Source: a virus. Taken from it: a stretch of DNA of 24,112 nucleotides. The stretch spans positions 1 through 24,112 of the IMG/VR virus record IMGVR_UViG_3300045950_000011; one strand, 5' to 3'. Positions 5,465 to 22,725 of this stretch are shown one piece after another; position 1 is the stretch's first letter; every line of letters begins with the position of its first letter. The position numbers and the translations under genes are program-made. The notes beneath the pieces were generated by a model, which saw only the letters and a list, made by a program, of their open reading frames with translations, was not told the DNA's origin and did no database searches.

Positions 5465-5515
5465 GCGGGCAGGTTACGCGCGCGCACGGGACGGGTTAAG
5501 GCTGAAGCGCTTCAG
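5465..5515 (-). promoter_or_regulatory. Predicted late promoter of N with palindromic operator
   Basis: Read on the minus strand: palindrome CTGAAGCGCTTCAG (5515-5502), CC, -35 TTAACC (5499-5494), a 17-bp spacer (5493-5477), -10 TAACCT (5476-5471), six bases, then the ATG of N. The element fills the 55-bp gap between the tape-measure stop and N. The same arrangement recurs before I and before the lysis block. The palindrome abuts the -35, as expected for an activator that contacts RNA polymerase there; Mu late promoters, which need protein C, have a comparable design. The function is inferred from repetition and position. Confidence 0.72.
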
Positions 5516-5519
5516 GCGC

Positions 5520-7214
5520 TCAGTTACGGCGGGCAGTGCGCGTCGCGGTTTCGTTGACCGACGCGACTATATTCCCGTTCTGCACTTCGACCTGCACTTT
5601 GACAGGCGCAGGGTCACGGTTCAGGAAATCATAGATTGCCGCGCCCAGCGTTGTTTCATGGCCTGACACGGCAGATACCAACGAATCGATGCCGTCGCGA
5701 ACTACCGGTCCGATCATGTTATAGCCAAGTTCCCACCCGCCGTATGCTGCGGCAGCCTGCCCAAGCCCGTTTGCCAGCTTACCCAGCTTGCCTGCTGGCT
5801 TCTGCGGAGCCTCACCCTCTCCAGGGACGACCACGCCGCCACGGCCGGCGCGCTTCTGCTTGAGCTGGTCTCCTGGCAACAACATGCCGCCGGGCCAGTT
5901 GGTCACGAATACTTGTTGCACTCCGGCTGCGCCCGCAACTGCATCGGCGATTCCGGCGGACTCGCCAAGCCTGGCATTGCGGTTCTTGCGCGCGCGGTTG
6001 AGCAGGTAGAGCGCCCCAATCCCGAGCCCACCCTTCAACGCCATGTCCGGGTCGTCTGCCAGCTTGCCCGCCATCCCGCCGATGAACGAAGTGGCCTTGC
6101 CAGAGCTATCGGATAGCTTCAGCTTTTCAATCTGAATTTCGGCAGCCTTGATCTTGCCGAAATTCGCCTGCTTGATCTCGGCGAGATCGGTGGTGATCTG
6201 GTCTTTTGCGGCGGCCTGATCGGCAGCAGCCATCTCGCTCCGAATCTTGTCCGAGTACTGCATCAGCGCACGGAAAAACTTGTTTGTTTCCTGATCGGCG
6301 AAGCCGGCCTGCCCGAGCTTGAACGGATCTTCCAGCCCCTTCTTCTTCATCGCGTCCACCAGCGCCAGCAAACCATCGACGCCGCCCTCGCCGTAGAACT
6401 TTCCGCCGGGGGCGTATTTCTTGATGTCGATGCCAAACTTCTGCAACCCCTGCACATAATGCGGACTGACGATGTGGCCCAATCCCTGCTGCATGAGCGT
6501 CGAAACTTTCCCGGGATCATTCACCGAGGCGTACTTCATCAGCACCTGGGTCAATGCACCGGTGAAATTCAGCCCGCGCTCACCGCGCACACCGACTGCC
6601 CCGACTGCATTGAACAGCTCCGGCGCTTGGCGTGCCAACTGGGGAGCCTCGAACCGTCCTGAGTTGCCGTGGTAGTACAGCATGTTGTGGACGGCATTGA
6701 GACGCTTTGGATCGATGTTGAGCTTGTCGGTGATATCGAAGTCCATGTTGGCGATTTCTTCGACCGACGCGCGAAATACGGTGGCGGCCTTGGCGGCGGA
6801 AACCGCCTTGACTCTGATATCCTCGAACTTCTCGCCGGCCCTGGCAAATGCCTTCATGCCGATCATGATTTCGTGCGGGGTTTGCAATGCCGATTCAGCG
6901 GAATCAATGGCGAGCCGGCGCAGCTCGTCGGCCTGCTCTTTGAGCATGCCGCTGTTCTGCTTCATTTCCAGGATATCGCGCTCGAAATTCAGGTTGGCGT
7001 TGAGGGTGCTGCGCACCGCGGCCAGCCCGCCCGCGGCGGCAAACAGCTTGGTTGCCGCCGTGAAGCCATTGAAGTCGGACCAGAGCTGCTTCACCTCGCG
7101 GCGCATGTCGCCCAATCCGCGCGCGCTTTGCTCGGTGAAGCGGCGCATTCCCGCCGCCGCTTCCGCATTGCCGCGCAGCCTTAACCACAGCGCGATTTCA
7201 AGATTCTTGCTCAT
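5520..7214 (-). CDS. Tail tape measure protein (Mu gp42 position)
   Basis: A 564-aa protein that sets tail length and is ejected with the DNA in contractile phages. The first 130 residues are helical with the usual phage tape-measure opening (MRRFTEQSARGLGDMRREVKQLW, AAAGGLAAVRSTL, FERDILEMKQNSGM, DELRRLAIDSAESALQTPHEIMIGMKAFARAG). Middle segments such as RLNAVHNMLYYHGNSG and NFTGALTQVLMKYA belong to the TP901/phage-tail TMP core. The C-terminal half has low-complexity Gly/Ala stretches and a Gly-rich linker. It is short for a tape measure, so a short tail is expected. The ribosome site (GAGGGC) is about 10 bases from the ATG. It stops at 5520 just before the N promoter. Confidence 0.9.
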   Translation of the reverse strand: MSKNLEIALWLRLRGNAEAAAGMRRFTEQSARGLGDMRREVKQLWSDFNGFTAATKLFAAAGGLAAVRSTLNANLNFERDILEMKQNSGMLKEQADELRRLAIDSAESALQTPHEIMIGMKAFARAGEKFEDIRVKAVSAAKAATVFRASVEEIANMDFDITDKLNIDPKRLNAVHNMLYYHGNSGRFEAPQLARQAPELFNAVGAVGVRGERGLNFTGALTQVLMKYASVNDPGKVSTLMQQGLGHIVSPHYVQGLQKFGIDIKKYAPGGKFYGEGGVDGLLALVDAMKKKGLEDPFKLGQAGFADQETNKFFRALMQYSDKIRSEMAAADQAAAKDQITTDLAEIKQANFGKIKAAEIQIEKLKLSDSSGKATSFIGGMAGKLADDPDMALKGGLGIGALYLLNRARKNRNARLGESAGIADAVAGAAGVQQVFVTNWPGGMLLPGDQLKQKRAGRGGVVVPGEGEAPQKPAGKLGKLANGLGQAAAAYGGWELGYNMIGPVVRDGIDSLVSAVSGHETTLGAAIYDFLNRDPAPVKVQVEVQNGNIVASVNETATRTARRN

Positions 7215-7342
7215 CTGTTATGCTGCCCTCATGTCCAGCCTGCTGATGATCTTGTTGCTCGGCCTCGCTCTGGTGGTGTTCCTGCCGGACATTGTTTTCG
7301 CGCCCGTGGTGTTTGTGCTTTGGCTGGCCGAGAAGGGCATGA

Positions 7343-7570
7343 TCACGGCTTCACGCCTTGTTTCTTTCTGCGAGCGCCCTTGTAGTGGCGGCTCTCGGTT
7401 CCGCTAGTCTTGCCGCTTTGCCGGCGGACGGATTCCGCCTCGGCATTCACCATCGCCAGTAGCCACAGCCACTGACCTTCCGTCAGGTCGCAGGCTGGGA
7501 CACCAAAGTAGTGATAAGCCTTTTCAGCATGGCGGAACTTAAATCGTTCAAAAGCGGATTTTCCGGCGTT
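7343..7570 (-). CDS. Tail chaperone frameshift extension (gp41'-like)
   Basis: This frame has no good start of its own; it is reached by a -1 slip in the preceding chaperone gene. After the slip it encodes 75 residues (NAGKSAFERFKFRHAEKAYH, then YFGVPACDLTEGQWLWLLAM, VNAEAESVRR and a basic end with RRKKQGVKP) before TGA at 7343-7345. The aromatic EGQWLWLLAM helix and the Lys/Arg-rich C-terminus read as a real protein, and the extension fills most of the otherwise empty space before the tape-measure gene. Two overlapping frames joined by slippage are a conserved feature of tail assembly chaperones in dsDNA phages, lambda G/GT being the model. The fusion product would be 209 aa. Confidence 0.82.
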   Translation of the reverse strand, partial: NAGKSAFERFKFRHAEKAYHYFGVPACDLTEGQWLWLLAMVNAEAESVRRQSGKTSGTESRHYKGARRKKQGVKP

Positions 7571-7971
7571 TTTTTTACCGCCTCGACCAGCTCGCTGAAC
7601 TCCGCATCCGTCATCGTCCGCTCGGAGGGAGAGAAGGTCTTTTCGTGATCCAGATATTCCTCGATCAGCGCGGTCTTCTCGTCGCGGCTGAGCGCCTCGC
7701 GCAACGCCTTGGCGGAATCGGCCACCGGACTCTTGATGGCCGGGTCGATCAAGGCGCGCAGCAATAACTGGCTCGCCTTCTCAGACTCGAACGCTTCGGC
7801 CGAAGACAGGCCCAGCTCGATACCAGCTTCCCTCATGGCCAGCTCGGTGGCGATCTGCGCTTCGAGGTAGTCCTGTTCGGTCAGCACGCGCAGTCCGAAT
7901 TTAACGCCGTTCAATGTGACTTCCTTGATTGCTGAGCGGCCAGCCTTCAGCCTGTCCAGGAGTGCGCTCAT
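7483..7971 (-). CDS. Tail assembly chaperone, Mu gp41-like
   Basis: A 162-aa acidic, helical protein (MSALLDRLKAGRSAIKEVTL, NGVKFGLRVLTEQDYLEAQI) in the place of Mu gp41, between tube and tape-measure genes. Proteins of this position coat the tape measure while the tube polymerises around it. The short form ends ITTLVSQPAT. Residues 134-135 are encoded by a run of eight A where ribosomes can slip to the extended frame. Start at 7969-7971 is three bases after the tube gene stop, so translation is probably coupled. Confidence 0.87.
   Translation of the reverse strand: MSALLDRLKAGRSAIKEVTLNGVKFGLRVLTEQDYLEAQIATELAMREAGIELGLSSAEAFESEKASQLLLRALIDPAIKSPVADSAKALREALSRDEKTALIEEYLDHEKTFSPSERTMTDAEFSELVEAVKKTPENPLLNDLSSAMLKRLITTLVSQPAT
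7570..7576 (-). promoter_or_regulatory. Programmed -1 frameshift site, A AAA AAA
   Basis: On the minus strand the chaperone frame reads GTA AAA AAA ACG, giving the canonical slippery heptamer A AAA AAA within a run of eight A (7576-7569). A small stem (CGGA-AAA-TCCG) follows a few bases downstream. Slipping back one base opens the 75-codon frame ending at 7343, while staying in frame ends at 7483. Both products have sensible sequence. Confidence 0.82.
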
Positions 7972-7974
7972 CGC

Positions 7975-8340
7975 TTATGCCTCGCGCAGGAAGTAGCCGG
8001 AGATGTCGCGCACCGCCTCGCCTTCGAGCTGGTAGCGATTGCCGACGGTCTGCACGTTCGCGTCGATGAAGGTCGTGCGCTTGGAGGGATTCTCCACCGG
8101 GTAGATCACGATCTGCGCGTCCTTCATGTTCGTCCAGTCGAACTCGCCCGCGGCCGGCGCCGCGGCCGTGATCTTGAAGTCGTAGGTCTTGATGCCGGTC
8201 ACGCTGCCCTTGGCGCGGCCGGTGCGGTTCATCGTCTTAACGGGCTTGCGTCCGGTGTTAACGGTGTAGTCGAGCGAGACGACGTCCACCTCCTGCCCGT
8301 TGATCTCTACCACTACCTCGCCGTCGTAATCGATAGCCAT
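7975..8340 (-). CDS. M: Tail tube protein (Mu gp40/M-like)
   Basis: A 121-aa protein, the size of Mu-like tube subunits, that stacks as hexameric rings to form the inner tail tube. It is beta-rich (YDGEVVVEINGQEVDVVSLD, VTGIKTYDFKITAAAPAAGE, DAQIVIYPVENPSKRTTFID) and ends RDISGYFLREA. A strong ribosome site (GAGGAG) precedes the ATG at 8338-8340. It directly follows the sheath gene, the order found in all Mu-like phages. Confidence 0.92.
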   Translation of the reverse strand: MAIDYDGEVVVEINGQEVDVVSLDYTVNTGRKPVKTMNRTGRAKGSVTGIKTYDFKITAAAPAAGEFDWTNMKDAQIVIYPVENPSKRTTFIDANVQTVGNRYQLEGEAVRDISGYFLREA

Positions 8341-8358
8341 GTCTTTACTCCTCTATGG

Positions 8359-9777
8359 TTACAGGAACAGGTCCAGGCGCTGCGCGATGACGTGCAGGCC
8401 GTTGACCACGTTGACCTTGATGCGGATGTTGTAGCGGCTCGGGTCGACGCTGTCATCCTCGATCAGGATGTCTTCCTTCTTGACGTTCTCGATGATCTCC
8501 AGCTCTTCGAGCTTGAGCATCACGTTGTAGATCGCGTCATGCAGGCGCGCCTTGGTGCGCACCGACTTCTTGTCGCGCGGGAAGCGCAGGCCGATGACTT
8601 CCTCGATCGCCTTGGCCACGTAGTCCAGCGTGCCGATGGTGGTCCAGTCCAGCATCGAGATGTCCGGCACGTTGTTGGCGTTGACCAGGTAAGTGGTGAT
8701 CGCTCGCACGATCTGCACCTTGTTGCCGGGGCCGATGCGCACCGGCGTCACGCCGTTGTGCAGCGCGGCCTCGATCTGCTCCTCGGACAGCCAGTTGGCC
8801 ATCGGCGGCGCAGTCAGACCACCGAGCGGCAGTCCGTTCAGCTGGCGGGCCGGGTCTTCCTCGCTCGCAGCGACGGCGGCCATCGCGGCGGCGACTTTGT
8901 ACGAGGATTCCTTGGCGGACGGGTCGAGCACGCACAGCATGCGGCCACTGTTGATCGCCGTGGCCAGCGTGGTGGCCTGCGCGTAGGTGCCGATATGGGC
9001 GAACACCGCGCGGCAGCGGCGCTTCTCGCGCGGGCCGGATACCGCGTCGATGTGCGTGCGCAGCGCGGTCAGGTTGGTCTGGTCGTTGTAGGCGCTGATG
9101 ATGATGTGATGGCCGGCGTTGTAGATCGCGGTCAGCGCGCTGGTCATATCTGGATCGTTCAGGCCGTTGGCCATCGCCACCACGGCCGCGCCGACGCCGG
9201 CCGCGCCGGATACCATTGCCGTCAATTTGATGGCGTTGCCCAGCGTGCCCTTGTTCTTGGCGCTGACCGTAATCACCCCGGCCAGCACCGTTGCAGTGAT
9301 GGGCAGGTCGGGCTGCAGCGCGATCTGCGCATTGAGCGCTGCCGCGATGGCGTTGGCCGTGTCGCCGGAGGCAATGGCGATATCCACCGCCTCGTCGTCA
9401 ACCGTCAGGCGAAGTGCGCCGCTGGAGGTGGCCGGGCCGGTGATGGTCACCGTGCCGCTGGCGGCCACGCCGGCACCGGCGTCATCCAGCGCGATGGCTT
9501 GAAGCGACAGGTAGCGGTTCGCCTCGATGGCGGCACGCACGGCGAGGTGCGCGATCGAGCCGCGGCCGAAGTACACGGCGGCCTCTTCTTCGGAGAAGAT
9601 GTCCGCCGCCACATTGGCTGCGACGGCTCCGGCAGCCAGGCGCTGGCCGACCACGATCACCTTGTACAGATTGGCGGGCAGGGTATTGACCGCCATCTTG
9701 GTATTGAACTCGGTATAGATTCCCGGCTTGCGGATGGTGGACGGGACGTTATCGAACTGGATGTTGGGGCTGGGCAT
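8359..9777 (-). CDS. L: Tail sheath protein (Mu L-like)
   Basis: A 472-aa contractile sheath subunit. The N-terminus (PSTIRKPGIYTEFNTKMAVN) and the LPANLYKVIVVGQRLAAG strand are typical of Mu-like sheaths. An inserted Ala/Val/Thr-rich domain follows (about 95-210: GTVTITGPATSSGALRLTVD, TVLAGVITVSAKNKG). The conserved C-terminal domain includes IYNAGHHIIISAYND, NWLSEEQIEAALHNGVTPVR, VRAITTYLVN and the final NIRIKVNVVNGLHVIAQRLD that makes the interlocking strands. An AGGAG ribosome site precedes the ATG. The sheath contracts to drive the tube through the cell envelope. Confidence 0.95.
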   Translation of the reverse strand: MPSPNIQFDNVPSTIRKPGIYTEFNTKMAVNTLPANLYKVIVVGQRLAAGAVAANVAADIFSEEEAAVYFGRGSIAHLAVRAAIEANRYLSLQAIALDDAGAGVAASGTVTITGPATSSGALRLTVDDEAVDIAIASGDTANAIAAALNAQIALQPDLPITATVLAGVITVSAKNKGTLGNAIKLTAMVSGAAGVGAAVVAMANGLNDPDMTSALTAIYNAGHHIIISAYNDQTNLTALRTHIDAVSGPREKRRCRAVFAHIGTYAQATTLATAINSGRMLCVLDPSAKESSYKVAAAMAAVAASEEDPARQLNGLPLGGLTAPPMANWLSEEQIEAALHNGVTPVRIGPGNKVQIVRAITTYLVNANNVPDISMLDWTTIGTLDYVAKAIEEVIGLRFPRDKKSVRTKARLHDAIYNVMLKLEELEIIENVKKEDILIEDDSVDPSRYNIRIKVNVVNGLHVIAQRLDLFL

Positions 9778-9801
9778 GATCGCTCCTGGTTAGTTTGCGG
9801 A

Positions 9802-10056
9802 TTAGGCCTTGGCTGCCTTCGCAGCTTCCGCCTTGGCTTTTTTGTCTGCGGCGATCGCGGCGGCTTCCGCCTTGGCATCCGCCTCCTGCTGCGCCGCCCA
9901 CTCCTGGTCTGTGGCCTCGACCAGATCGCCGGCGGACACCATGCTGCGGTAATAGTGGCTATCCTCCACCTCGACGAAGCGCTCATCCGGAATGTAGATC
10001 TTCGGCCTGTGCTGCAGCGGCGCCTTGATGCCAGGCTTGGCTTTTACTCTCAACAT
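9802..10056 (-). CDS. DUF2635 protein, Mu gp38-like
   Basis: An 84-aa protein starting MLRVKAKPGIKAPLQHRPKIYIPDE. The VKAKPG.K.P and (F)VEVEDSHYYRSMVSAGDLVEA segments are the DUF2635 pattern of Mu gp38. Its role is not well established; it sits always just before the sheath gene. The last 35 residues are an Ala/Lys/Glu-rich helix (AAQQEADAKAEAAAIAADKK), a composition also found in the gp35-like protein nearby. AAGGAG precedes the ATG. Confidence 0.88.
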   Translation of the reverse strand: MLRVKAKPGIKAPLQHRPKIYIPDERFVEVEDSHYYRSMVSAGDLVEATDQEWAAQQEADAKAEAAAIAADKKAKAEAAKAAKA

Positions 10057-10068
10057 GTTTGGTCTCCT

Positions 10069-10671
10069 TTACGTTAACGTGACTTCGCCGCGCATATCGG
10101 CGACGCCGTCGTCTGGCTGCAGGTAGTAATTGATGCCGACGCTGAGGAAATCGCCCGACGTCGGGTCTATCGCTTCGCGCGGCTGCGTCTCGATGAACTC
10201 GCAGTGCCATTCGCGGGCGAATACCGCCAGCCCCTTGCCGTTCAGCCTGGTGTTGTACAGCGTGCGGATCGCACCCGGCTTCAGCGGCGTGATCGCCAGG
10301 CCGAGATCGCTGCCCGCCAGCAGCAGGCCCATATCCTTCAGGATCTGGTACACGCCGACTTCCTTGATCACGCCGCCGACCGTCAGCCCCTTGCGCGTGG
10401 CGCGCTCGCCGCGCACGTTGCGAGATCCGCACATCGTCACGAAGGTGGCCGAAGTGCGCCACTTGTTGCCCGCCGTGTTCGCCTTGGTCGATGCGCGGCA
10501 ACCCGCGAAGGTCACCCACACCGCCGGGAATTTGCGCACCACGGTGGCCAGATCGTCGTCCAGCTCGCCGCCGTAGCTTTCCACGATGGGCAGCTTGTAG
10601 CCCAGCCCCGGCGTAGCAGCGGCGGCTGCAGCGATGCGGGCGATCATGGCGTCTTCGATGGCGGCGATCAT
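10069..10671 (-). CDS. DUF1834 protein, Mu gp37-like tail terminator candidate
   Basis: A 200-aa protein. The frame is open upstream, but ATG 10669-10671 (MIAAIEDAMIARIAAAAAAT) overlaps the gp36 stop by ATGA and matches the DUF1834 start. Family features are VESYGGELDDD, VVRKFPAVWVTF, a Ser/Thr-rich KWRTSATFVTMCG strand pair, and a C-terminal EFIETQ... beta region. Mu gp37 (K) is thought to end the tail tube and join it to the head; this role is taken from the family, not visible here. Confidence 0.9.
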   Translation of the reverse strand: MIAAIEDAMIARIAAAAAATPGLGYKLPIVESYGGELDDDLATVVRKFPAVWVTFAGCRASTKANTAGNKWRTSATFVTMCGSRNVRGERATRKGLTVGGVIKEVGVYQILKDMGLLLAGSDLGLAITPLKPGAIRTLYNTRLNGKGLAVFAREWHCEFIETQPREAIDPTSGDFLSVGINYYLQPDDGVADMRGEVTLT

Positions 10672-11087
10672 CCGCGTGTGCTCCGATCGAATACGCGCCC
10701 GCCTGGTGCGCTGAATTGCACCGTGTTGGCAGGCGGTGCCACGTTGTTCGCCGCATCCAGCCCGAGGCCGAGCTTGCCGGCGGCCACGCTTTCCAGAAAC
10801 CTGACCGCATCCTTGTAGCGGTTGCGGATCGCCTCCGTCTCCATCACCGACGCACCGCACAGCCGGTAGCGGGCGATGTCGCAGGCGTAGCCGATCAGGA
10901 TCTTCGGCACGCTGGCCAGCGGCAGCTGGTGGCGCGGTGCCAGATACGGATCGATCTCGGCATCGGCCTCGGCCAGCGCGGAATTCAGCACCGCGTCGTC
11001 GATCACGCCGAGGTTGGCGCGGTCGGTGAGCGCGATTACCTCGTCTTCACCGAAGCGGGCGATCATGGCGGCCTTGGTGGCGTACAT
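10668..11087 (-). CDS. DUF1320 protein, Mu gp36-like head completion
   Basis: A 139-aa protein of the DUF1320 family, opening MYATKAAMIARFGEDEVIALTDR. The acidic IDPYLAPRHQLPLASVPKIL segment and the IGYACDIARYRLCG helix with the following NRYKDAVRFLESVAAGK helix are diagnostic. The fold belongs with the head-tail adaptor/completion proteins (comparable to HK97 gp6 type), acting at the portal vertex. Start lies three bases after the gp35-like stop; the end overlaps gp37 by four bases. Confidence 0.9.
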   Translation of the reverse strand: MYATKAAMIARFGEDEVIALTDRANLGVIDDAVLNSALAEADAEIDPYLAPRHQLPLASVPKILIGYACDIARYRLCGASVMETEAIRNRYKDAVRFLESVAAGKLGLGLDAANNVAPPANTVQFSAPGGRVFDRSTRG

Positions 11088-11090
11088 GGA

Positions 11091-11438
11091 TTACTCGTCG
11101 ACCTCAATCTCGGCGACGGTCAACAGCGCCTCGCCCTTGATCTGCGCGATCTGCTCGTCGTTCAGATCAGAGAGCTTCACCACCGTTTCGCCCTTGGGCC
11201 ATGCGCGGCCACCGCGGCGGAAGCCATCGCGGGAGCAGGTCACACTGAGCGCCGGCACCTTGTTGCCGGCACCGCCTGTCTTCTTCGCGGCCGCAGCTTC
11301 AGCTGCTTCCTCGGCGGCCTTCTTCGCAGCCTTTGCTGCGGCCGCTTCCTCGGCGGCCTTCTTCTCAGCTGCTGCCTTCTCAGCCTCTGCCTTCTTCGCG
11401 GCTTCCTGCGCCGCCTTGTTGGTGTTGGTCTTGGACAT
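11091..11438 (-). CDS. Mu gp35-like protein with FluMu N-type domain
   Basis: A 115-aa protein. Residues 1-55 are a nearly pure Ala/Lys/Glu helix (KKAEAEKAAAEKKAAEE). Residues 60-110 form a small domain (SVTCSRDGFRRGGRAWPKGE, DLNDEQIAQIKGEALLTVAE) recognisable as the FluMu_N/HI1506-type domain of Mu-like phages. Function is unknown. Its ribosome site (AGGAG) lies at the foot of a possible hairpin described separately, so its translation may be structure-controlled. Confidence 0.85.
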   Translation of the reverse strand: MSKTNTNKAAQEAAKKAEAEKAAAEKKAAEEAAAAKAAKKAAEEAAEAAAAKKTGGAGNKVPALSVTCSRDGFRRGGRAWPKGETVVKLSDLNDEQIAQIKGEALLTVAEIEVDE

Positions 11439-11445
11439 GTTCGCT

Positions 11446-11491
11446 CCTGGTTGTCTTTATCCAACCAGCCCCGCACTCAAGGCGGGGCTGG
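11446..11491 (-). ncRNA. Two competing hairpins downstream of major head gene
   Basis: On the mRNA strand a perfect 10-bp stem (CCAGCCCCGC / GCGGGGCTGG, 11491-11465) with a 7-nt loop follows the T gene. A second 7-bp stem (CTGGTTG / CAACCAG, 11468-11447) shares the CTGG arm with the first, and its 3' arm reaches into the AGGAG ribosome site of the gp35-like gene. Both cannot form at once. There is no U-tract, so a simple terminator is unlikely. The place corresponds to the published Mu-gpT-DE RNA motif (downstream of gpT); I cannot confirm a match to it. Confidence 0.5.
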
Positions 11492-11520
11492 GGTCTCTAC
11501 TTCGCTCCGGGGGATATTCC

Positions 11521-12564: not shown

Positions 12565-12601
12565 TGCGGATCTCCTATCGAATTAACGGGACGGGTTCGG
12601 C

Positions 12602-13267: not shown

Positions 13268-13294
13268 GTCGTTCTCCTGTTGGTTGATCGGTGG

Positions 13295-13870
13295 TTACGA
13301 CGCAGCCTGGGCGGCCAGCGTCTTCTTGAACTCGTCCGGCGAGACGCCGGTCGCGGTACACATCGCCAACTGCGCTTCGCTCAGCTCGCCTTGCGGCTTC
13401 ACTTCCGGCGGATTGCCGCCGGTCTGGGTTCCGGTCAGCGCATCGATCGGCTGCGCGGTCTCCAGGTACTGGTTGAGCGCGGCGAGGTTGCTCATGCCGA
13501 GATCGCGCGCCCACTTCTCCTGGGCGGGCAGCAGTTTGCCCTGCGACATCGCGGCCACCACGACGCCATCCACATCGCGCTGCAGGTTGGCCTTCTTCAG
13601 ATCGGCCAGCTCGGACTGCAGCGCCTGCATGGTCTCGACCGGCGCATACTTGGCCGGGTCGGGCGTGGCGGCGGACAGCGCGGCCACCTGGGCATTCAGG
13701 CCGGTGACGAGGCCGGTGATGCTGAAGGAAGCGGCTGCGGTCTCGGTCGGGTTCGACTGCTTGATCGCGTTGACGGCCTTCTGCAGCTCGGCCATGACCT
13801 CTTCCTTGGTCGCCAGCGTCGGCAGGTTGAACAGCCAGCGCAGCTGCTCCAGCAAATCTTCGATATCCAT
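13295..13870 (-). CDS. Z: Nested head scaffold protein Z (internal start in I)
   Basis: The last 191 codons of the protease gene can be translated separately from ATG 13868-13870, which has a perfect AGGAGA (13881-13876) with six-base spacing inside the coding sequence. The product (MDIEDLLEQLRWLFNLPTLA onward) is acidic and helical with a coiled-coil-like TMQALQSELADLKKANLQRD part, as scaffolds are. Mu encodes scaffold Z in the same way, as the in-frame 3' part of I. It would guide prohead assembly and be removed by the protease. Confidence 0.82.
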   Translation of the reverse strand: MDIEDLLEQLRWLFNLPTLATKEEVMAELQKAVNAIKQSNPTETAAASFSITGLVTGLNAQVAALSAATPDPAKYAPVETMQALQSELADLKKANLQRDVDGVVVAAMSQGKLLPAQEKWARDLGMSNLAALNQYLETAQPIDALTGTQTGGNPPEVKPQGELSEAQLAMCTATGVSPDEFKKTLAAQAAS

Positions 13871-14416
13871 CGTTGTCTCCTGTGGGTTGGTGAGTTGTGC
13901 CAGGTCAGCGCTGGCGGCAGCGATGGCGACTTCCGCCATGCCATCGATGTTCGGGGTGTTGGTCAGGGCGGCGGAATGGATGCCCAGGACGTTCCCGGTC
14001 TTCTTGTCGTAGAAGAACACCGGAGAGAGGTATTTGTATTCGCCGGCGGCGATGTAGTCCTTGGCACGCTGGGTCAGCTCGGCGCGCGCGAACAGGCCTT
14101 CACCCTCGCGGAACACGAGTCCGGCGCCGCTGAACCATCCGGCAGCCGGCGCTGGCTGGCCGTTCTTTTCCTTGTGCAGGGTCTGGTGCTCGTAGTCGAT
14201 GACCAGATCGATGTTGCGCGACGAGTTGAACGCGATCACATTGGCCGCGATCGCGGAGTCGATGTTCCAGGCTGGCACCTCGGCCGGACGGCCGTCGATG
14301 CCACGGAAGGAACCTGCCGGAGTGAGCTGCAGCTCGCCCGCCTCGTTCAGCGACAGCGAACATGCGGCGACGCCGACGCCGATCTGCTGCTTGGTCTTGG
14401 TGGATTTGTTTGCCAT
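13295..14416 (-). CDS. I: Head maturation protease I
   Basis: A 373-aa Mu I-type protease/scaffold. Residues 10-180 form the protease part: VGVAACSLSLNEAGELQLTP, FRGIDGRP, NIDLVIDYEHQTLHKEKNGQ, PAAGWFSGAGL, YIAAGEYKYLSPVFFYD, HSAALTNTPNIDGM. The EH in IDYEHQT and the Ser-containing YLSPVF and HSAALTNTP segments are the family's conserved points. The C-terminal half is the scaffold. The start (MANKSTKTKQQIG) has no Shine-Dalgarno and lies six bases after a predicted -10; the frame stays open upstream but that stretch is promoter DNA. It opens the head operon. Confidence 0.9.
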   Translation of the reverse strand: MANKSTKTKQQIGVGVAACSLSLNEAGELQLTPAGSFRGIDGRPAEVPAWNIDSAIAANVIAFNSSRNIDLVIDYEHQTLHKEKNGQPAPAAGWFSGAGLVFREGEGLFARAELTQRAKDYIAAGEYKYLSPVFFYDKKTGNVLGIHSAALTNTPNIDGMAEVAIAAASADLAQLTNPQETTMDIEDLLEQLRWLFNLPTLATKEEVMAELQKAVNAIKQSNPTETAAASFSITGLVTGLNAQVAALSAATPDPAKYAPVETMQALQSELADLKKANLQRDVDGVVVAAMSQGKLLPAQEKWARDLGMSNLAALNQYLETAQPIDALTGTQTGGNPPEVKPQGELSEAQLAMCTATGVSPDEFKKTLAAQAAS

Positions 14417-14467
14417 GCCGCCATTCTGGAGAGGGCGACACGGGGAGTTAAGGCTGAAGCACTTCAG
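14417..14467 (-). promoter_or_regulatory. Predicted late promoter of I with palindromic operator
   Basis: On the minus strand: CTGAAGTGCTTCAG (14467-14454, one base off perfect symmetry), CC, -35 TTAACT (14451-14446), 17-bp spacer (14445-14429), -10 CAGAAT (14428-14423), six bases, then the ATG of I. It has the same layout as the sites before N and the lysis block. Its place corresponds to PI of Mu. Confidence 0.72.
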
Positions 14468-14669: not shown

Positions 14670-14675
14670 CCTGAG

Positions 14676-15188: not shown

Positions 15189-15204
15189 GGCTCTGCCTCA
15201 TAAT

Positions 15205-15300
15205 GTAGCCAGCTAGGCTGGGTGTGTCGCCCACGGGTAACGGGAGGCTGGAGCAATCCAGTCGAGAATGTAGGTTCGAGTCCTACCCCCAGCCGGCTAC
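15205..15300 (+). ncRNA. tRNA-like structure between F and G
   Basis: The plus strand reads like a degenerate tRNA. GGCTGGG (15216-15222) pairs with CCCAGCC (15288-15294) as acceptor stem. The T-arm is perfect: GTAGG, loop TTCGAGT, CCTAC (15270-15286), including the GGTTCGAGTCC B-box. The middle stem CTGGA / TCCAG (15248-15261) encloses only GCAA, not a 7-base anticodon loop, and the D-arm is poor. An outer stem GTAGCC / GGCTAC (15205-15210, 15295-15300) lengthens the whole. No CCA is encoded. It may be a decayed tRNA, a tRNA mimic, or, read on the late mRNA strand, a processing or stability element. Confidence 0.45.
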
Positions 15301-16613: not shown

Positions 16614-18183
16614 CTTGCGCGCTCAGCCGGCCCCACACCTCGGCCACGAACATGGCGCGCGCCAGCGTCTCTTCGAGCTGCTGCGTGTTCATGGACGGGA
16701 ATATTTCCGCTAGCTTGCCGTGGATCTCGGCGTAATCGGCCGAGGCGGCAATCATCTCCAGCACCGGCTTGAGCGTGGCGGCGGCTTGCCCCTGCAGCAG
16801 ATCCGGCGCGATGGATTCGATCATGGCATCGAGCGCGGTCTGGTCGGCGAACGTGTCTGCGCCGGTGGCAGACAGCGCGGCCAGCGAGGCGTTGGCAGCC
16901 ACGCCCGGACCTGCCGCCGGCTTCTCCTCTCCCAGCACCGCCGCGCCTTCCTCGGCCTGCGGGATGCCGGCGCGCTCGTGCGCCCAGTCCAGCGGGATGT
17001 TCATGCCGAGGCCGACCAGCTTGGGCAGCGCTTCGGCCAGCACGCCGAGATCCTCGGAGTCGTCGAACACGAACTTGAATTTCGGAAGGCGACGCAGATC
17101 GTCCACGCCGCCCTTGTTCAGAGCCAGCAGCGGATACACCAGGTCGCGCGTCAGCGTGCCGGCCAGCTGCACGGCGTCAGCGCGCATCAGATCTTCGCGC
17201 ACTTCGTTGTGCACGTTGCCCAGTGCGTTGGTGCTGCTCTTTCCGTCCGCCTGGCTGGTCAGCGTTCCGCCCAGAATCGCTTTACTCTGGCTCTTTTCGC
17301 ACCAGTCGGTCATCGCCATGAACGGGCCTTCGCTACCCTTGGCCGCTTCCTTGAACTCGATCATCATGCCCTCGGGGATGATGCCGGCGGCGTCGTGACC
17401 GATGCTCATCACCGCGCGCAGCAGTGTGGCCTTCTCGTCGTCGGACGCGCCGGACTGGTAAGTGCCCAGGCGCAGCGGCAGGCCGTAAATCTCCAGGAAC
17501 TCGGCCAGATCGCCGACCGAGTAGTTCTTGAACAAGTAAGGCCACGACAGTACGCGGTGCAAGCCGGATCGGGCGATGTAGCCGCTCTTGGCCTTGTGCA
17601 CATGCCTGATCCAGCCAAACGGCCGCAACGCCTCACCGTCCAGCGAATTGTCGCGCAGGCGGATCTCGGTGCGGGTCGCCATATCGGTTTGGAACCAGCC
17701 CTGCGGGCGATGGCTGATCTCCTTCGGCATCCACTCGCGCCCGATCAGCTCCCACTCGATCTCCTGGCAGCTGTAGCCGTGGCCGATACCATCCAGCGCG
17801 TCTAGGATCACATCCTCGAAGTTCGGCACGTCCTGCATCAGCTCCTTCGCATAACCCGCCAGCTTGCGCTCGGTGGCGCTGGCGTTGCGCGGCGGCACGA
17901 TGTCCCATTCCACGGTAAGCAAGGCGCGCTTGCGCTTGCCCATCTCGGCGAAGATATGGGTGTCTTTCTCTTCCATGTCCATGAACAGCTCGTGCTGGGC
18001 GCGGATATCGCCCTGCTCGGCGGCTTCCAGGATGCGCGCCAGCTTGAGCGGCGTTAAACCGCGCGACGGATGGCTGGCGAATTCACGGTGCAGCTGCGCC
18101 AGCTTCGAGGTCTGAGGCTCCTGCAGCTCGGTGCGCTTGATCGGGTTGCCGTGCTGATCGAGGATACGTGTAGTTTCTACCAT
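16600..18183 (-). CDS. Portal protein, Mu gp29-like (DUF935)
   Basis: A 527-aa portal of the DUF935 family. The N-terminus (MVETTRILDQHGNPIKRTEL, ASHPSRGLTPLKLARILEAA, EQGDIRAQHELFMDMEEKDT, HIFAEMGKRKRALLTVEWDI) and the middle (GIGHGYSCQEIEWEL, GLHRVLSWPYLFKNYSVGDL, AEFLEIYGLPLRLGTY) are highly characteristic. It forms the dodecameric DNA channel at one vertex, to which terminase docks. Start overlaps the terminase end by seven bases; end overlaps F by 14. Confidence 0.95.
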   Translation of the reverse strand: MVETTRILDQHGNPIKRTELQEPQTSKLAQLHREFASHPSRGLTPLKLARILEAAEQGDIRAQHELFMDMEEKDTHIFAEMGKRKRALLTVEWDIVPPRNASATERKLAGYAKELMQDVPNFEDVILDALDGIGHGYSCQEIEWELIGREWMPKEISHRPQGWFQTDMATRTEIRLRDNSLDGEALRPFGWIRHVHKAKSGYIARSGLHRVLSWPYLFKNYSVGDLAEFLEIYGLPLRLGTYQSGASDDEKATLLRAVMSIGHDAAGIIPEGMMIEFKEAAKGSEGPFMAMTDWCEKSQSKAILGGTLTSQADGKSSTNALGNVHNEVREDLMRADAVQLAGTLTRDLVYPLLALNKGGVDDLRRLPKFKFVFDDSEDLGVLAEALPKLVGLGMNIPLDWAHERAGIPQAEEGAAVLGEEKPAAGPGVAANASLAALSATGADTFADQTALDAMIESIAPDLLQGQAAATLKPVLEMIAASADYAEIHGKLAEIFPSMNTQQLEETLARAMFVAEVWGRLSAQDEQG

Positions 18184-19718
18184 GCTGATCTCCTGTCGAT
18201 TCCGCCGTTGTCGTCGTCGCGCTTTGGGACGCCTTCATAGTCAATCGGGGCCACCTCGCGCTTCATGGCGTAGTGCCCGAGGAACAGGCTGATGGCCGAG
18301 TCGCCGTGGCGCTGCAGCTTCTCGCCTTCCCCGGTTTGCGTCTTGGCCTTGCCCAGCTTCGGGATGCCGTCGACTAGCTTGAGCGCGCGCAAGTCATCGC
18401 GCGTTTGCGAATCTCTGGGGATGTCGGTCAGCGTTCCGTCCTGCAGTGCAGCCTTGAAGCGCGGCATATTGGCCAAGTAGAAGGAATCGCTGAGCATCAC
18501 CTGTTCCACGCGCGCTGCCCCGAACTTCTGCGCCGCCCGCTCGGCCAGATACTGTCCGTTGCCGCGCGCATCGAACGCGGCAGAGCGGAAGCGCGGCAGG
18601 TGGCTGAGGATGTAGAAGACGATCTGCTCCTGCTGGCGGAACGGGCAGTTGGATAGCTCGATCTGCCCGCGCACGCGGGTGATGAGGTCGCGGCCTTCTT
18701 CCATGATGTTCAAGGTGGTCAAATCGCCCAGGCGGCCAAAGTCCTCGCCCAGTCCATGCGCCAGATCCTTGTTGAGCGTGTCCAGGATGGGCTTGATGTG
18801 TTCCTCGCACCAGGCGGCCACCTCGGCCTCGCGTTCCCAGTCCGGCAGGTAGGCGAACTCCGATGTCCAGCGTCCGCGCACCAGCGGCGTGTCCGGGTTC
18901 ATGCGCGCCTCGATCAGGCCCATCGTCAGGTACGCACCGGCCGATTGCGACGGCACCACGTCCAGTTCCTCGCTGGCATCTTCGCCGTAGAACGCATAGG
19001 CATCGGCCACCCACTGCGCCTCGCCTTCCGCTGTCCACTCGATGCCGCGCCGCAGGCACACGCGCTGATACAGCCCCTGTTCGACCGCCTCGCGGAAGGT
19101 GATGCGGTGCACCGATCCCTTGCGCTTGCCGGCGCGCACTTCCTGGATGAGTTCGTTGAACGGGTTGTCCTGCCCGTCGTGGGTAGAGAAGATGCGCACC
19201 TTGTCGCCCCACAGCAGCATGGCCATCGCGGCCTTAAGCAGCGCGGCCAGATCGTTATGGAACGCGGCCTCGTCGATGACGATCACGCCCTGCTTGCCGC
19301 GCAGGTTGGTCGGGCGCGAGCTGAGCGCCACGATGCGGCGGCCAGTAGCAGGGAAGTCGATCTTGTAGGTTTTGATCTCCTTGTCGCCGTCGACGAAGAT
19401 CCCTTCCTCGATCTCGGATGCTGCATAGTCGAATGCGCGCGCCCACATGGCGCAGGCTTCGATGTACTCCAGCGCCATGTCCTGCGTAGGGCCGATGTAG
19501 AACACGTTTGAGCTAAGTTCCTCGCGCGCCGCGATCAGCACGTCGTCTGCGGCCTCGCCCCATGTCCAGCCAACCCGGCGCGACTTCTCCCCGATCTTCA
19601 GGGGGCTGTCGTCGGCGATCCACCGCTGCTGGTATGGCAGTAAAGCAGGCGGCGGCGCGTCCTTGCGCGCCGCATCGCTCGGGAGGCCGACCGGAATCGT
19701 TTTAGCTGGGGATGCCAA
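18177..19718 (-). CDS. Terminase large subunit, Mu gp28-like
   Basis: A 513-aa DNA-packaging motor with ATPase and nuclease. A deviant Walker A (KSRRVGWTWG, residues 45-54), typical for the Mu gp28 branch, precedes Walker B VIVIDEAA (145-152). The RNase H-like nuclease begins with DFGRLGDLT (326-334), with further conserved acids near D383 (FDARGNG) and D473 (HGDSAISL). It cuts host-flanked prophage DNA and pumps it into the prohead. The start lies within the last codons of the small subunit gene. Confidence 0.95.
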   Translation of the reverse strand: MASPAKTIPVGLPSDAARKDAPPPALLPYQQRWIADDSPLKIGEKSRRVGWTWGEAADDVLIAAREELSSNVFYIGPTQDMALEYIEACAMWARAFDYAASEIEEGIFVDGDKEIKTYKIDFPATGRRIVALSSRPTNLRGKQGVIVIDEAAFHNDLAALLKAAMAMLLWGDKVRIFSTHDGQDNPFNELIQEVRAGKRKGSVHRITFREAVEQGLYQRVCLRRGIEWTAEGEAQWVADAYAFYGEDASEELDVVPSQSAGAYLTMGLIEARMNPDTPLVRGRWTSEFAYLPDWEREAEVAAWCEEHIKPILDTLNKDLAHGLGEDFGRLGDLTTLNIMEEGRDLITRVRGQIELSNCPFRQQEQIVFYILSHLPRFRSAAFDARGNGQYLAERAAQKFGAARVEQVMLSDSFYLANMPRFKAALQDGTLTDIPRDSQTRDDLRALKLVDGIPKLGKAKTQTGEGEKLQRHGDSAISLFLGHYAMKREVAPIDYEGVPKRDDDNGGIDRRSAW

Positions 19719-20214
19719 GGATCTGGCTCCTGATCTCTTTGACCGCAGCGGCGGACAGCCCGCCCTTCTTGGCGATCTTCTCGACGGCAGCTGCGGCGGA
19801 CTCCGCCTTGGCGCGCACCTCGGCGGCGAACTGCTTCTGCTTCACGGTGGCATTGGAGAGGCGAGCCACCATCAGCCCAATCTCCTTCATCGGCGCGCCT
19901 TCCTCCATTTTGAGCAGAGTGTCGAACGCCTTCTGCTGCACCAGCCGGATCAGCGCATCGTTCATCGCGCCGGCATCGTCCGGCGCCGCCTCGGAGATCG
20001 CCTTGGCCTGCTCCGTGGCCAGCTTGAGCGCGTGCAGACGCTGCTCGAACTCCTGCCCGTAACGGTTGATGCTGGACTTGCCGATCGCATAACCGCGTTC
20101 GGCCAGCTCCTTCTCCAGCAGCTCGTAGCCGGAGAAGTTGCCCTCGATCAGCGCCCGGTCCAGCCATTGCTTGACCGGGTCCGGCAGCTGCTTGATTTTG
20201 GAACGCGGCGGCAT
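19702..20214 (-). CDS. Terminase small subunit, Mu gp27-like (DUF3486)
   Basis: A 170-aa helical protein, MPPRSKIKQLPDPVKQWLDR at the N-terminus followed by LEKELAERGYAIGKSSINRY, a helix-turn-helix-like DNA-recognition part with the family's K(S)S(I)NRYG. The remainder is helical. DUF3486 proteins sit immediately before gp28 in Mu-like phages and are regarded as the small terminase that selects the packaging site. Start is one base after the gp26-like stop. Confidence 0.92.
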   Translation of the reverse strand: MPPRSKIKQLPDPVKQWLDRALIEGNFSGYELLEKELAERGYAIGKSSINRYGQEFEQRLHALKLATEQAKAISEAAPDDAGAMNDALIRLVQQKAFDTLLKMEEGAPMKEIGLMVARLSNATVKQKQFAAEVRAKAESAAAAVEKIAKKGGLSAAAVKEIRSQILGIPS

Positions 20215-20215
20215 G

Positions 20216-20527
20216 TCATCCTGCCCAGTACTTCGTGGGGCGCGCGATACCAGGATCGCAGTCGACCGTGTACTCGGCCAAGTCGGTGCCGTAGCGCGTG
20301 AGATCGGCGAACCAGCGTCCGCCCGGCTCTTTGACCAGCTTGATCAGCTCGCGATCGGAGAGGTAATCCAGCGCGCGCCGCACCTCCAGCGCCGTGGCGT
20401 CCTGGAACATGCCCTGCACCGTGGCCAGCACCAGCTCCTCGTAAGCGCCCATCGGACTGGCGTTGTGCAGCGTTAAAATCACCAGCCAGCGCACGTTCTC
20501 GCGCCGTACTTTTTCCTGGTCAATCAT
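20216..20527 (-). CDS. gp26-like winged-helix protein (VpaChn25_0724 type)
   Basis: A 103-aa protein. The start at 20525-20527 (MIDQEKVRRENVRWLVILTL) was preferred over an upstream one because the preceding gene ends here and because the family starts with R(R)ENVR..IL..L. The EVRRALDYLSDRELIKL helix followed by the RWFADLTRYGTDLAEYTVDC wing and terminal GIARPTKYW fit a small winged helix found just before the terminase genes in Mu-like phages. Function is not established; DNA binding in packaging or late regulation is plausible. Confidence 0.82.
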   Translation of the reverse strand: MIDQEKVRRENVRWLVILTLHNASPMGAYEELVLATVQGMFQDATALEVRRALDYLSDRELIKLVKEPGGRWFADLTRYGTDLAEYTVDCDPGIARPTKYWAG

Positions 20528-20876
20528 GTTTGGCCCCCTGTATCTGTACCACTTCGACCTTGCTGTAAAGCGCATCCAGCTTGGCCTCGATCACTGTCTG
20601 TCCGCGTATGTAGTCTTCGCGCCGCACATACAACACCGGCAGGTCGCGCTGGAACTCAAGGAACTCCCGCTCGAACTTGCGCAACTGTTCTGCCACCTTG
20701 ACATCGTCCGCTGCGCGCTTGGTCAGGTCCGCCTGGATGGAAGTGAACCGCTGATCGAGCTGCGCCTTGAATTGGCGTACCAGGATCGTGCCGAACAGCC
20801 ACATCAGCGTGGCGAACACGCCGATCAGCGATGCGACCGCCATAATCAGCTCCCACAGATCAATTTGTACCTGCAT
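20520..20876 (-). CDS. DUF2730-like small membrane/coiled-coil protein (gp25 position)
   Basis: A 118-aa protein. The start at 20874-20876 (MQVQIDLWELIMAVASLIGV) was chosen for the family-like N-terminal membrane segment at residues 7-31 followed by a long helix with heptad-like spacing (QFKAQLDQRFTSIQADLTKR, VAEQLRKFEREFLEFQRDLP). This membrane-plus-coil design and its place between the zinc-finger gene and gp26 match DUF2730 proteins (Mu gp25). Its job is unknown. It overlaps both neighbours by a few bases. Confidence 0.75.
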   Translation of the reverse strand: MQVQIDLWELIMAVASLIGVFATLMWLFGTILVRQFKAQLDQRFTSIQADLTKRAADDVKVAEQLRKFEREFLEFQRDLPVLYVRREDYIRGQTVIEAKLDALYSKVEVVQIQGAKHD

Positions 20877-21090
20877 AACTGCCTTTCGCTTTCTCCCGGC
20901 GCGCCTGGCACGCCGCACAAAACCGCACTCGCGGATACGCCTTGCGGCGCTCTTCCGGGATCTCCTCGCCGCAATGGATATCCCGGCAATGCGTGGCCGG
21001 AATGGCATCCGGCTCGGGCAGCCCGGCGCTCTCCTGCCGCGCCTCCCACTCCTGCAGTTCCAGCTCCTGCGCGCGGTCTTCCGGCCTCAC
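20860..21090 (-). CDS. TraR/DksA-type C4 zinc-finger protein
   Basis: A 76-aa protein starting at GTG 21088-21090, which overlaps the Rz stop (GTGA). Cysteines 35, 40, 58 and 61 form a zinc site (CRDIHCGEEIPEERR, then RFCAACQARREK); the C-terminal part is basic. The first pair is spaced C-x4-C instead of the usual C-x2-C. Relatives (TraR, DksA) bind in the RNA polymerase secondary channel; many short phage forms exist with unproven roles. The N-terminal 30 residues are acidic. Confidence 0.85.
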   Translation of the reverse strand: MRPEDRAQELELQEWEARQESAGLPEPDAIPATHCRDIHCGEEIPEERRKAYPRVRFCAACQARREKAKGSYAGTN

Positions 21091-21617
21091 CGCGCGCCCG
21101 TTTCCATCAGGTGGTCGATCAGTTCGTCGTGCCGCTTGCGGTCTTCGGCGCAGAGGCGGGCGTTGATGGCGACGTTGTCGAGGGCTTCGCGGGGCGTAAC
21201 AGGACCGGCTGGTGCGACTTCGCCAGCAGCTCCGCCGGTATCGCCTTCAGCGAGCTCGGGTTGCCAGGCGGCGTTGTACAGGCCGACCCAAGTGCCGCTG
21301 AGCAAAGCAGCATGAACGCCAGCCTGCGCCGGCTCGCATTGCGCGAGATTCGCGTCTTTCTCATGGTCCAGCCTCTCTTTCCAGTTGCGGTAATAGTTCT
21401 CGGCCTTGCGCTGCCAGGCGATGACGTTGGCGGCGTGCGTCTTGCCGCTGACCAGCGCGGCCTGGAACGCCTTGTCGGACTCGCGCTTCTGCGCCAGCTC
21501 GATCGCGTCGCGGCGGTTCGATTCGATATTCAGGCCGGCCACGGCACCGGCGGCGATGCAGGCCAATACCAGCAGCACCAGCGCGAGGATGCGGTACGGA
21601 GCGGGGATCAGGCGCAC
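21087..21617 (-). CDS. Rz: Inner-membrane spanin, Rz-like
   Basis: Start assigned to GTG 21615-21617 because a GGAGG (21628-21624) lies six bases before it; an in-frame ATG at 21635 has no such site. The 176-aa product has a membrane anchor near the N-terminus (ILALVLLVLACIAAGAVAGL), then a periplasmic helical part (ESNRRDAIELAQKRESDKAF, WQRKAENYYRNWKERLDHEK). A second gene for the outer-membrane partner lies entirely inside it in another frame. Together they would fuse inner and outer membrane at the last step of lysis. It follows the endolysin gene. Confidence 0.85.
   Translation of the reverse strand: MRLIPAPYRILALVLLVLACIAAGAVAGLNIESNRRDAIELAQKRESDKAFQAALVSGKTHAANVIAWQRKAENYYRNWKERLDHEKDANLAQCEPAQAGVHAALLSGTWVGLYNAAWQPELAEGDTGGAAGEVAPAGPVTPREALDNVAINARLCAEDRKRHDELIDHLMETGAR
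21119..21364 (-). CDS. Rz1: Outer-membrane spanin lipoprotein, Rz1-like, embedded in Rz
   Basis: An 81-aa protein fully inside the Rz gene, shifted frame, with its own ribosome site (GAGAGG, seven bases before ATG 21362-21364). It has a basic N-terminus, a hydrophobic run and a lipobox-like end at Cys29 (RRRLAFMLLCSAALGSAC). The -3 residue is Gly, not the usual Leu. The mature part is Pro/Ser/Thr-rich (TTPPGNPSS, PAKPSTTSPSTPASAPK), as in known Rz1 proteins. This nested arrangement is classic for lambda Rz/Rz1. Confidence 0.82.
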   Translation of the reverse strand: MRKTRISRNASRRRLAFMLLCSAALGSACTTPPGNPSSLKAIPAELLAKSHQPVLLRPAKPSTTSPSTPASAPKTASGTTN

Positions 21618-22234
21618 TGGATACCTCCGCCCCATCCGGCATAGATGGGCTGCCAGCGCGTCAGGATCAGGCGCGGGTAGCCGCGATTCTCGGAAAATGC
21701 GGCCTTGCTGCGCCCTGCGTTAAACCGCTCGACCTGGCCGAACCAGCGGGCGCGATCCGCGCCGTGCTGCGCGGCCAGCTTCTGGTCACGGTACACCCAG
21801 CCCAGCCCGCCGTTGTAGGCGGAAAGCGCCATCGCCATGCGGCTGCAGGCGTCGGATGCCCGCACGCGCTCCCACAGGTGGCGGTCGTAGGTGACCAGCG
21901 CGCGCAGCGCCCATCCGGGGTTGTAGGGCTGCGCCTCGCCCCAGCGGTACGCGCCGGAAATCCACGTCGCCGTGGCCGGCATGAACTGCGCGATGCCCTG
22001 CGCGCCCACCGGGCTGCGCGCATCGGTGCGCCAGCGGCTCTCCTGGTGTATCTGCGCGGCGAAGGCGGCGACCGGCGCATCCATGCCCCACACGGCGCGC
22101 GCCTGGCGCGTCAGGTCGCGCTGGTAATGCCTGGCCGCCTGCGGCACATCGGCGGCCATCGCCAGCAGCGGCAACAGCATCAGCGCCACCACGGCGATCA
22201 GCGCGTACCGGGCATGTTTGCGCGGGAATCTCAC
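21608..22234 (-). CDS. Lytic transglycosylase endolysin with signal peptide
   Basis: A 208-aa protein starting at GTG 22232-22234, which shares its G with the holin stop (TAGTG). Residues 1-27 are a signal peptide or release-type anchor (basic RFPRKHARY, hydrophobic ALIAVVALMLLPLLAMA). The SLT fold follows, with catalytic Glu65 in QIHQESRW, GAQGIAQFMP (77-86) and ALSAYNGG (136-143). It cleaves peptidoglycan glycan strands. In Mu the lys (gp22) product has the same function. Export through Sec would mean the holin works by depolarising the membrane. Confidence 0.92.
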   Translation of the reverse strand: MRFPRKHARYALIAVVALMLLPLLAMAADVPQAARHYQRDLTRQARAVWGMDAPVAAFAAQIHQESRWRTDARSPVGAQGIAQFMPATATWISGAYRWGEAQPYNPGWALRALVTYDRHLWERVRASDACSRMAMALSAYNGGLGWVYRDQKLAAQHGADRARWFGQVERFNAGRSKAAFSENRGYPRLILTRWQPIYAGWGGGIQCA

Positions 22235-22515
22235 TACACCCCCAGCGAGACGCCAAGCATGGCGCAGCCGACGATGATGGCGCGGCGCAGCATGGCGGCG
22301 GCGATCAGCAGGTCATACGGATCGAGCTTCGGGTTGTCCGGCCGCGCATACGGGAACAGCGAGCGGTCGATCCAGTAGCCGATCACTGCGGCCGTGGTGA
22401 TGAGCGACAGCTTGTAGGCGGATACGAGCAGTTGCTGCGGGGCGAGGACGTAGATCAGCACCGTCAGCAGGACGGTGACGATGATCCAGTCGTACATGCG
22501 CGGGAGTCTCTTCAT
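22234..22515 (-). CDS. Putative holin
   Basis: A 93-aa hydrophobic protein: membrane segments at about residues 9-27, 33-47 and 68-88, separated by the YWIDRSLFPYARPDNPKLDP segment I associate with a family of putative phage holins of Mu-like phages. ATG 22513-22515 overlaps the stop of the preceding small gene (ATGA) and has GGAG upstream. It lies directly before the endolysin, the usual place. It would set the time of lysis. Confidence 0.8.
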   Translation of the reverse strand: MKRLPRMYDWIIVTVLLTVLIYVLAPQQLLVSAYKLSLITTAAVIGYWIDRSLFPYARPDNPKLDPYDLLIAAAMLRRAIIVGCAMLGVSLGV

Positions 22516-22673
22516 TTGGCGCTCCATCTGGTCGGGTTGAACAGGCACGCGGATTGCCTGTGCGAGTAGTGGCCGACAGGCCGGTGCGCGCATCCGCCGT
22601 GGTCAGGCATGCGCGCATCGGTGTGGCACGTCCACTTGCCGCAGTTACCGCAGGTTTGTTGAGGGGTTTGCAT
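22512..22673 (-). CDS. Small Cys/His-rich protein (53 aa), first gene of lysis operon
   Basis: A short frame from ATG 22671-22673 to TGA 22512-22514: MQTPQQTCGNCGKWTCHTDA, then RMPDHGGCAHRPVGHYSHRQ and a Trp-containing end. Four Cys in the first 27 residues (CGNCGKW...C...C) plus a CAHRPVGHYSHR tail suggest a small zinc ribbon. Evidence for expression: the promoter -10 lies seven bases before the ATG, there is a four-base overlap with the holin, and the product is not random in composition. Function unknown. There is no Shine-Dalgarno. Confidence 0.75.
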   Translation of the reverse strand: MQTPQQTCGNCGKWTCHTDARMPDHGGCAHRPVGHYSHRQSACLFNPTRWSAK

Positions 22674-22725
22674 GCCGCGCACAGTACGCGCGCGCGCGGA
22701 GAGGATTAAGGCTGAAGCGCTTCAG
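22674..22725 (-). promoter_or_regulatory. Predicted late promoter of lysis operon with palindromic operator
   Basis: On the minus strand: CTGAAGCGCTTCAG (22725-22712), CC, -35 TTAATC (22709-22704), 17-bp spacer (22703-22687) with an alternating GC tract, -10 TACTGT (22686-22681), seven bases, then ATG. Same layout as before I and N; position corresponds to Mu Plys. Confidence 0.72.

Follow-up and report, generated by a model that had tools for sequence, protein, structure and literature searches.

The 24,112-bp virus record IMGVR_UViG_3300045950_000011 (the window) is a fragment of a Mu-like phage without the early region, in which three matching blocks on the minus strand precede gene N, the protease gene I and the lysis operon. 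These blocks are very probably late promoters of the sigma70 type, dependent on an activator of the Mor/C family that the phage itself encodes. The sites, their geometry, their conservation and their covariation with Mor can be seen directly in the window and in a comparison set of about 170 related loci (designated L and a number). The regulator family was already known, but the operator, the specificity code, the predicted leaderless starts and the apparent reliance of every late operon on one activator seem to be new. No description of these operators, of leaderless late RNAs of Mu-like phages or of the recognition code was found in the literature covered, which excluded the D3112 and B3 genome papers, where an earlier notice is possible.

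Probable promoter blocks in the window

The palindrome CTGAAGYGCTTCAG followed by CC and TTAA is present in exactly three copies, on the minus strand, at 5515, 14467 and 22725. Exact copies of CTGAAGYGCTTCAGCCTTAA extend over 5515-5496, 14467-14448 and 22725-22706 on the same strand, and no further copy was found in the window at up to 2 mismatches, consistent with the original prediction of a block found three times and nowhere else in this stretch. The corresponding ATG codons are at 5464, 14416 and 22673, and their A lies 44.5 nt (N), 44.5 nt (I) and 45.5 nt (lysis) from the centre of the palindrome. Each block is made up of a hexamer with TTAA at -35, 17 nt, a -10 hexamer (TAACCT for N, CAGAAT for I and TACTGT for lysis), then 6, 6 or 7 nt and the ATG; the near-constant spacing and the hexamers quoted earlier were recovered unchanged. 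The predicted components are as follows.

22712..22725, minus strand: operator O-lys, CTGAAGCGCTTCAG, centre -45.5 from the ATG; same class in relatives
22704..22709, minus strand: -35-like TTAATC of Plys, from the sequence; CCTTAA is conserved in relatives
22681..22686, minus strand: -10 TACTGT of Plys, A-11/T-7 type
14454..14467, minus strand: operator O-I, CTGAAGTGCTTCAG, centre -44.5 from the ATG
14446..14451, minus strand: -35-like TTAACT of PI, conserved in relatives
14423..14428, minus strand: -10 CAGAAT of PI
5502..5515, minus strand: operator O-N, CTGAAGCGCTTCAG, centre -44.5 from the ATG
5494..5499, minus strand: -35-like TTAACC of PN
5471..5476, minus strand: -10 TAACCT of PN

Palindromes of the form CNGAA-N4-TTCNG arose by chance at a mean of 0.10 per window in Markov-1 simulations, and those with an ATG at 44/45 at 0.003, compared with three observed in both cases. 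By comparison with the Mu late promoters, which lie before the lysis genes, I and P, the blocks had been assigned to the lysis, head and baseplate operons. The third block precedes gene N, just upstream of the P-like hub gene, and not P itself.

As in Mu-type late promoters, a dyad at or upstream of -35 (centred here at -44.5 or -45.5) is combined with a weak, non-consensus -10, and the -35 carries TTAA. In Mu, the dyad mapped for Mor in Pm has its centre at -43.5 and extends from -51 to -36. Mor activates Pm and none of the late promoters, and the dyads in Plys, PI, PP and Pmom are bound by C (PMC4287176). Provided that +1 is the A of the ATG, the arrangement in the window would be that of a Mor/C-type activator site, because the palindrome centre matches the Mor dyad of Pm. 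A palindrome beside the -35 could also be bound by a repressor, from the phage or the host, that holds the late genes off, but this is very unlikely. A centre at -44/-45 is typical for activators and nearly equal to that of the Mor dyad (PMC4287176), the poor -10 and -35 fit a promoter that needs help, and changes in one operator base go together with changes in the recognition helix of a Mor-family protein, a member of a known family of activators (see below).

Conservation in related loci

A survey of 80 viral loci was anchored on the I protein and not on the motif. Most of these loci have a palindrome at the same place, differing in sequence by subgroup and preceding a -10-like hexamer, often with GGCGGC-ATG. 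In relatives with the CNGAA-N4-TTCNG class, the operator is centred at -44/-45 and followed by TTAA, 17 bp, a -10 of the A-11/T-7 type and the ATG. Across 64 non-redundant I promoters, the operator arms were far more complementary to each other than in an arm-swap control (z=11.9), with values of -1.5 to 0.9 in three control regions. The arm-swap test was used instead of a gapless column-pair analysis, which is diluted by register shifts of 1-3 nt.

When the I operator of each phage was used as a probe, a match was found ~8 kb upstream (lysis) in many phages and sometimes ~9 kb downstream (N). Within one phage the operator is common to the lysis and I promoters, and it differs between phages; B23, DMS3, VW-6B and YPCBV-1 have a related site at both places. 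Downstream of Mor, 52 operators in 1.29 Mb had an ATG at about the right distance, compared with 2 in 0.73 Mb upstream of it. A promoter directly before N was found only in the window and in four relatives (L034, L035, L037 and L198). The original prediction took the blocks for activator-type late promoters, which the -44/-45 geometry and the conservation support, and expected relatives to carry them at the same three places; they do so at I and usually at lysis, but in few cases at N. Identity of the palindrome with the Mu C site was rejected, as the earlier reading of a distinct operator would have it; none of the Mu late genes carries a CNGAA-type operator.

Searches of viral contigs with the window Mor as sole query yielded no confirmed relative, although the alignments succeeded. 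Scanning viral and genome contigs for the exact pattern produced chiefly chance matches, the credible hits being L009 and a site in a Proteobacteria metagenome-assembled genome (L023/L017). At the latter (L023 2781-2800, and L017), the 20-bp block CTGAAGCGCTTCAGCCTTAA is accompanied by TAGCAT at the same spacing, has no ATG at +1 and lies upstream of an open reading frame (ORF) of 781 aa.

The candidate Mor activator and its recognition helix

The candidate activator is encoded upstream of the lysis operon.

23395..23784, minus strand: Mor/C-family activator (PF08765) with a helix-turn-helix (HTH), recognition helix 110-116, Tyr114

The predicted protein matches PF08765 (E=2.6e-12, 47.1 bits, cut-off 24.9), and its profile matches the C and Mor chains of Mu, HTH region included. 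HTH helices are predicted at 99-106 and 110-116 (AlphaFold mean pLDDT 83), so that residue 114 would belong to the recognition helix. The HTH superposes on 9l0x and 9l0y, both transcription complexes, and on 1rr7 with Z ~5 over 43 residues.

Residue 114 tracks the base N in CNGAA-N4-TTCNG, Tyr or Trp occurring with T, Arg with G and Glu with C. A blind search confined to strict operators at the right ATG distance gave, as distinct helices, 6:0 for Trp/Tyr with T and 9:0 for Arg with G (Fisher p=2e-4, uncorrected for kinship); the remaining distinct helices were one Glu-C and one Phe-G. For L038, Arg was forecast from a CGGAA operator, and the Mor later found in the full record has Arg. The Mor of L123 is the sister of the window Mor (67% identical, support 97/93) and has Arg114 and CGGAA sites, so that the two differ as Tyr and Arg at one helix position and as T and G in the operator. 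This pair constitutes a testable activator-operator system with a natural switch. Operator specificity appears to be set in part by residue 114, with Tyr predicted to read T:A in each half-site. The palindrome had been assigned to the Mor/C protein encoded at 23784-23395, with co-occurrence with the Mor/C subtype as a proposed check. The operator base does vary in step with residue 114 of the upstream-encoded Mor, and this covariation with the recognition helix argues for binding by that protein.

Some other, unseen regulator might bind the palindrome, the correlation with Mor being due to shared descent. The early region is outside this record, and kinship inflates the association between residue and base. 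However, the change falls in the recognition helix and in the chemically expected direction (Arg-G, Glu-C), and it arises more than once on the Mor tree together with corresponding changes in the operator, as between sister Mors. We consider this alternative very unlikely.

Several observations weigh against dependence of the blocks on Mor. Many other HTH proteins superpose equally well, and fold matches of the whole model are weak. Phe114 pairs with G in one group and with T in another, and residue 114 alone is therefore insufficient to fix the base. The helix counts are phylogenetically linked, though the Arg label requires at least 3 changes on the Mor tree. The site in L153 lies within apparent coding sequence and may be due to chance. 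The early region being outside the window, a second Mor/C paralogue may be encoded elsewhere; a single Mor-family gene was found in each of the window, B23, DMS3, VW-6B and YPCBV-1, and no operator precedes a second activator in these. Finally, the third site, before N, is absent from most relatives, including L030, the nearest by I protein.

Other arrangements of Mor-family genes were seen. In the group with the AGTAAAACGCTTTACT operator (L060, L062, L064, L066, L095 and L106), a Mor-like gene is directly upstream of gene I and not at the end of the early region. The Mu-like prophages L072, L093 and L186-L190 have two Mor-family genes close together, where the window type has one.

Predicted leaderless starts

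Transcripts probably begin directly at the start codon, with no leader. Over 82 promoters, A is found at -11 in 76%, T at -7 in 62% (the rest apparently shifted by one) and C at -1 in 91%, and the gap from the -10 to the ATG is 6-7 nt at the three window sites. None of the three block ATGs is preceded by a Shine-Dalgarno sequence, which by a loose criterion is present at 17 of the 24 other ORF starts tested. Gene N mostly has an AGGAG-like, Shine-Dalgarno-like sequence in relatives where it is inside an operon, that of the tape measure; behind a Mor promoter, in the window and the four relatives named above, it lacks an AGGAG-like sequence. The genes directly behind the window promoters are as follows.

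13295..14416, minus strand: gene I, Mu-like protease/scaffold (PF10123); N-termini align across relatives
4175..5464, minus strand: gene N (PF07157, 'DNA circularisation'), heading the baseplate operon with a predicted leaderless start
22512..22673, minus strand: small Cys-rich ORF of 53 aa, heading the lysis/terminase operon with a predicted leaderless start; ATG 7 nt past the -10, no Shine-Dalgarno sequence

Judging from the aligned N-termini, the true start of gene I is the ATG at 14416. Gene I of DMS3 (L028) is annotated from 19163, and its conserved N-terminus, with the ATG behind the promoter, starts at 19037. Because the messages would have no leader, key late-gene start codons, for example that of I in DMS3, are mis-annotated if this reading is true. 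Near 10262 in DMS3, the ATG that follows the lysis-side promoter seems to open an unannotated ORF. The original account of the promoters included neither the predicted leaderless start nor the second inverted repeat described next.

A second inverted repeat around the -10

Promoters of the leaderless type have an inverted repeat whose arms lie on either side of the -10, the downstream arm ending at the ATG. The arms covary, as in GTCGCCAT/ATGGCGAC, GGTTGCCA/TGGCAACC and TCGCGCA/TGCGCGA. Pairing reaches 5.34 of 7 compared with 4.56 when arms are swapped (z=10), and 13 full stems were observed where 1.8 were expected. Among mismatches, G.T is tolerated and A.C is scarcer (36 vs 6; p=0.08 against swaps). 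The loops are 3 to 10 nt long, a range that disfavours a protein-dimer site at this dyad. The repeat is also found in I promoters of relatives (L031, L034, L101, L105 and others), and most of the few sites lacking an adjacent ATG have no good stem at the -10. In the window, the repeats at 14417-14439, 22674-22696 and 5465-5487 are weak, with 5/7 pairs each.

14417..14439, minus strand: imperfect inverted repeat of PI (GTCGCCC/TGGCGGC), 5/7 pairs, weaker than in many relatives

If transcription started further upstream, this repeat would be a hairpin in the 5'-untranslated region, immediately before the ATG of messages with a leader. The significance of the repeat, its variable loops and its compensatory arms would suit such a hairpin, and mismatches in which G.T is not depleted and A.C is scarcer are those of a hairpin in sense-strand RNA. 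Nevertheless, we regard an upstream start as quite unlikely. No other consistent -10 at a fixed distance was seen, and hexamers of the TAACCT/TAATCT type lie exactly 19 nt past TTAA even at sites without an ATG (TAGCAT in L023, TAATCT in L154, TAAATT in L130 and TAACCT in L196). Since these sites keep the -10 at unchanged spacing, the promoter is separable from the start codon. An upstream start would also put the operator at about -20, an unlikely position for an activator.

The repeat hints at an RNA-level role in read-through transcripts. One tentative and rather doubtful proposal is that, across Mu-like phages, the late genes immediately following Mor promoters have leaderless messages and that the covarying -10 repeat is a fold-back insulator, which would hide the start codon in read-through RNA. 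The lysis, protease and baseplate genes would then be translated only from transcripts begun by the activator.

Proposed mechanism and comparison with known systems

From the sequences, we infer that Mor, whose gene closes the early region, would bind as a dimer to CTGAA-N4-TTCAG centred at -44/-45 and, beside the poor -35 (TTAA), would help the host RNA polymerase to use the weak -10. This single activator would suffice to switch on the lysis-terminase-portal, protease-capsid-tail and N-baseplate operons together, and initiation at the A of the ATG would give rise to late mRNAs translated without a leader. If this is true, late-gene control of many Mu-like phages can be read from sequence, and the two-step Mor-then-C cascade of Mu is not a general rule.

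The window resembles the Mor/Pm system of Mu (PDB 1rr7, 9l0y) in its Mor-family HTH activator, a weak or absent -35, the position of the dyad (-44.5, and -43.5 in Mu) and an activator gene that ends the early region after GemA. It differs in operator sequence and predicted leaderless starts, and in that all three late operons appear to be served by the Mor-like protein. With C and its late promoters (PDB 9l0x, 9vw8) the window shares co-ordinated late operons at lysis, I and the N/P region and a dyad-symmetric activator site upstream of -35. However, no separate C gene is seen in the window, a fragment without the early region, and gene I of Mu has a Shine-Dalgarno-type leader. The window promoters probably work like C-dependent late promoters, differing from those of Mu in the operator and probably in the start.

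Pseudomonas phages of the DMS3/D3112 type (DMS3, NC_008717) likewise have one Mor-family gene after GemA. DMS3 carries TTGAACCCCTTC at lysis and I with the spacing seen in the window and GGCGGC-ATG, but the operator half-site in phages of this type is a variant and no third site of the N type was found. Alteromonadaceae phage B23 (KY939598), whose Mor is 44% identical to the window Mor, has CTGAA-N4-TTCAG at the lysis and I promoters in the same geometry. It differs in having Trp for Tyr at 114, and its gene N is preceded by a Shine-Dalgarno-like sequence, with no operator immediately upstream.

Gene order in the window

All window genes are on the minus strand in the order known from Mu, namely GemA-like, Mor (PF08765), a 194-aa ORF of unknown function, holin, transglycosylase, Gp27, terminase (identified from gene order alone), portal, F, G, I protease, gpT, sheath, tape measure, N, P-like hub and baseplate J. 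The 194-aa ORF (22780-23364) has a hydrophobic N-terminal stretch and no Pfam match, and separates Mor from the lysis operon, a place taken in Mu by the middle genes and C. Gene N includes an in-frame 33-bp tandem duplication (CGCACCTGGTTGATGGTGATCTCGATCTC...) at 4437-4502, with 94% identity between the copies.

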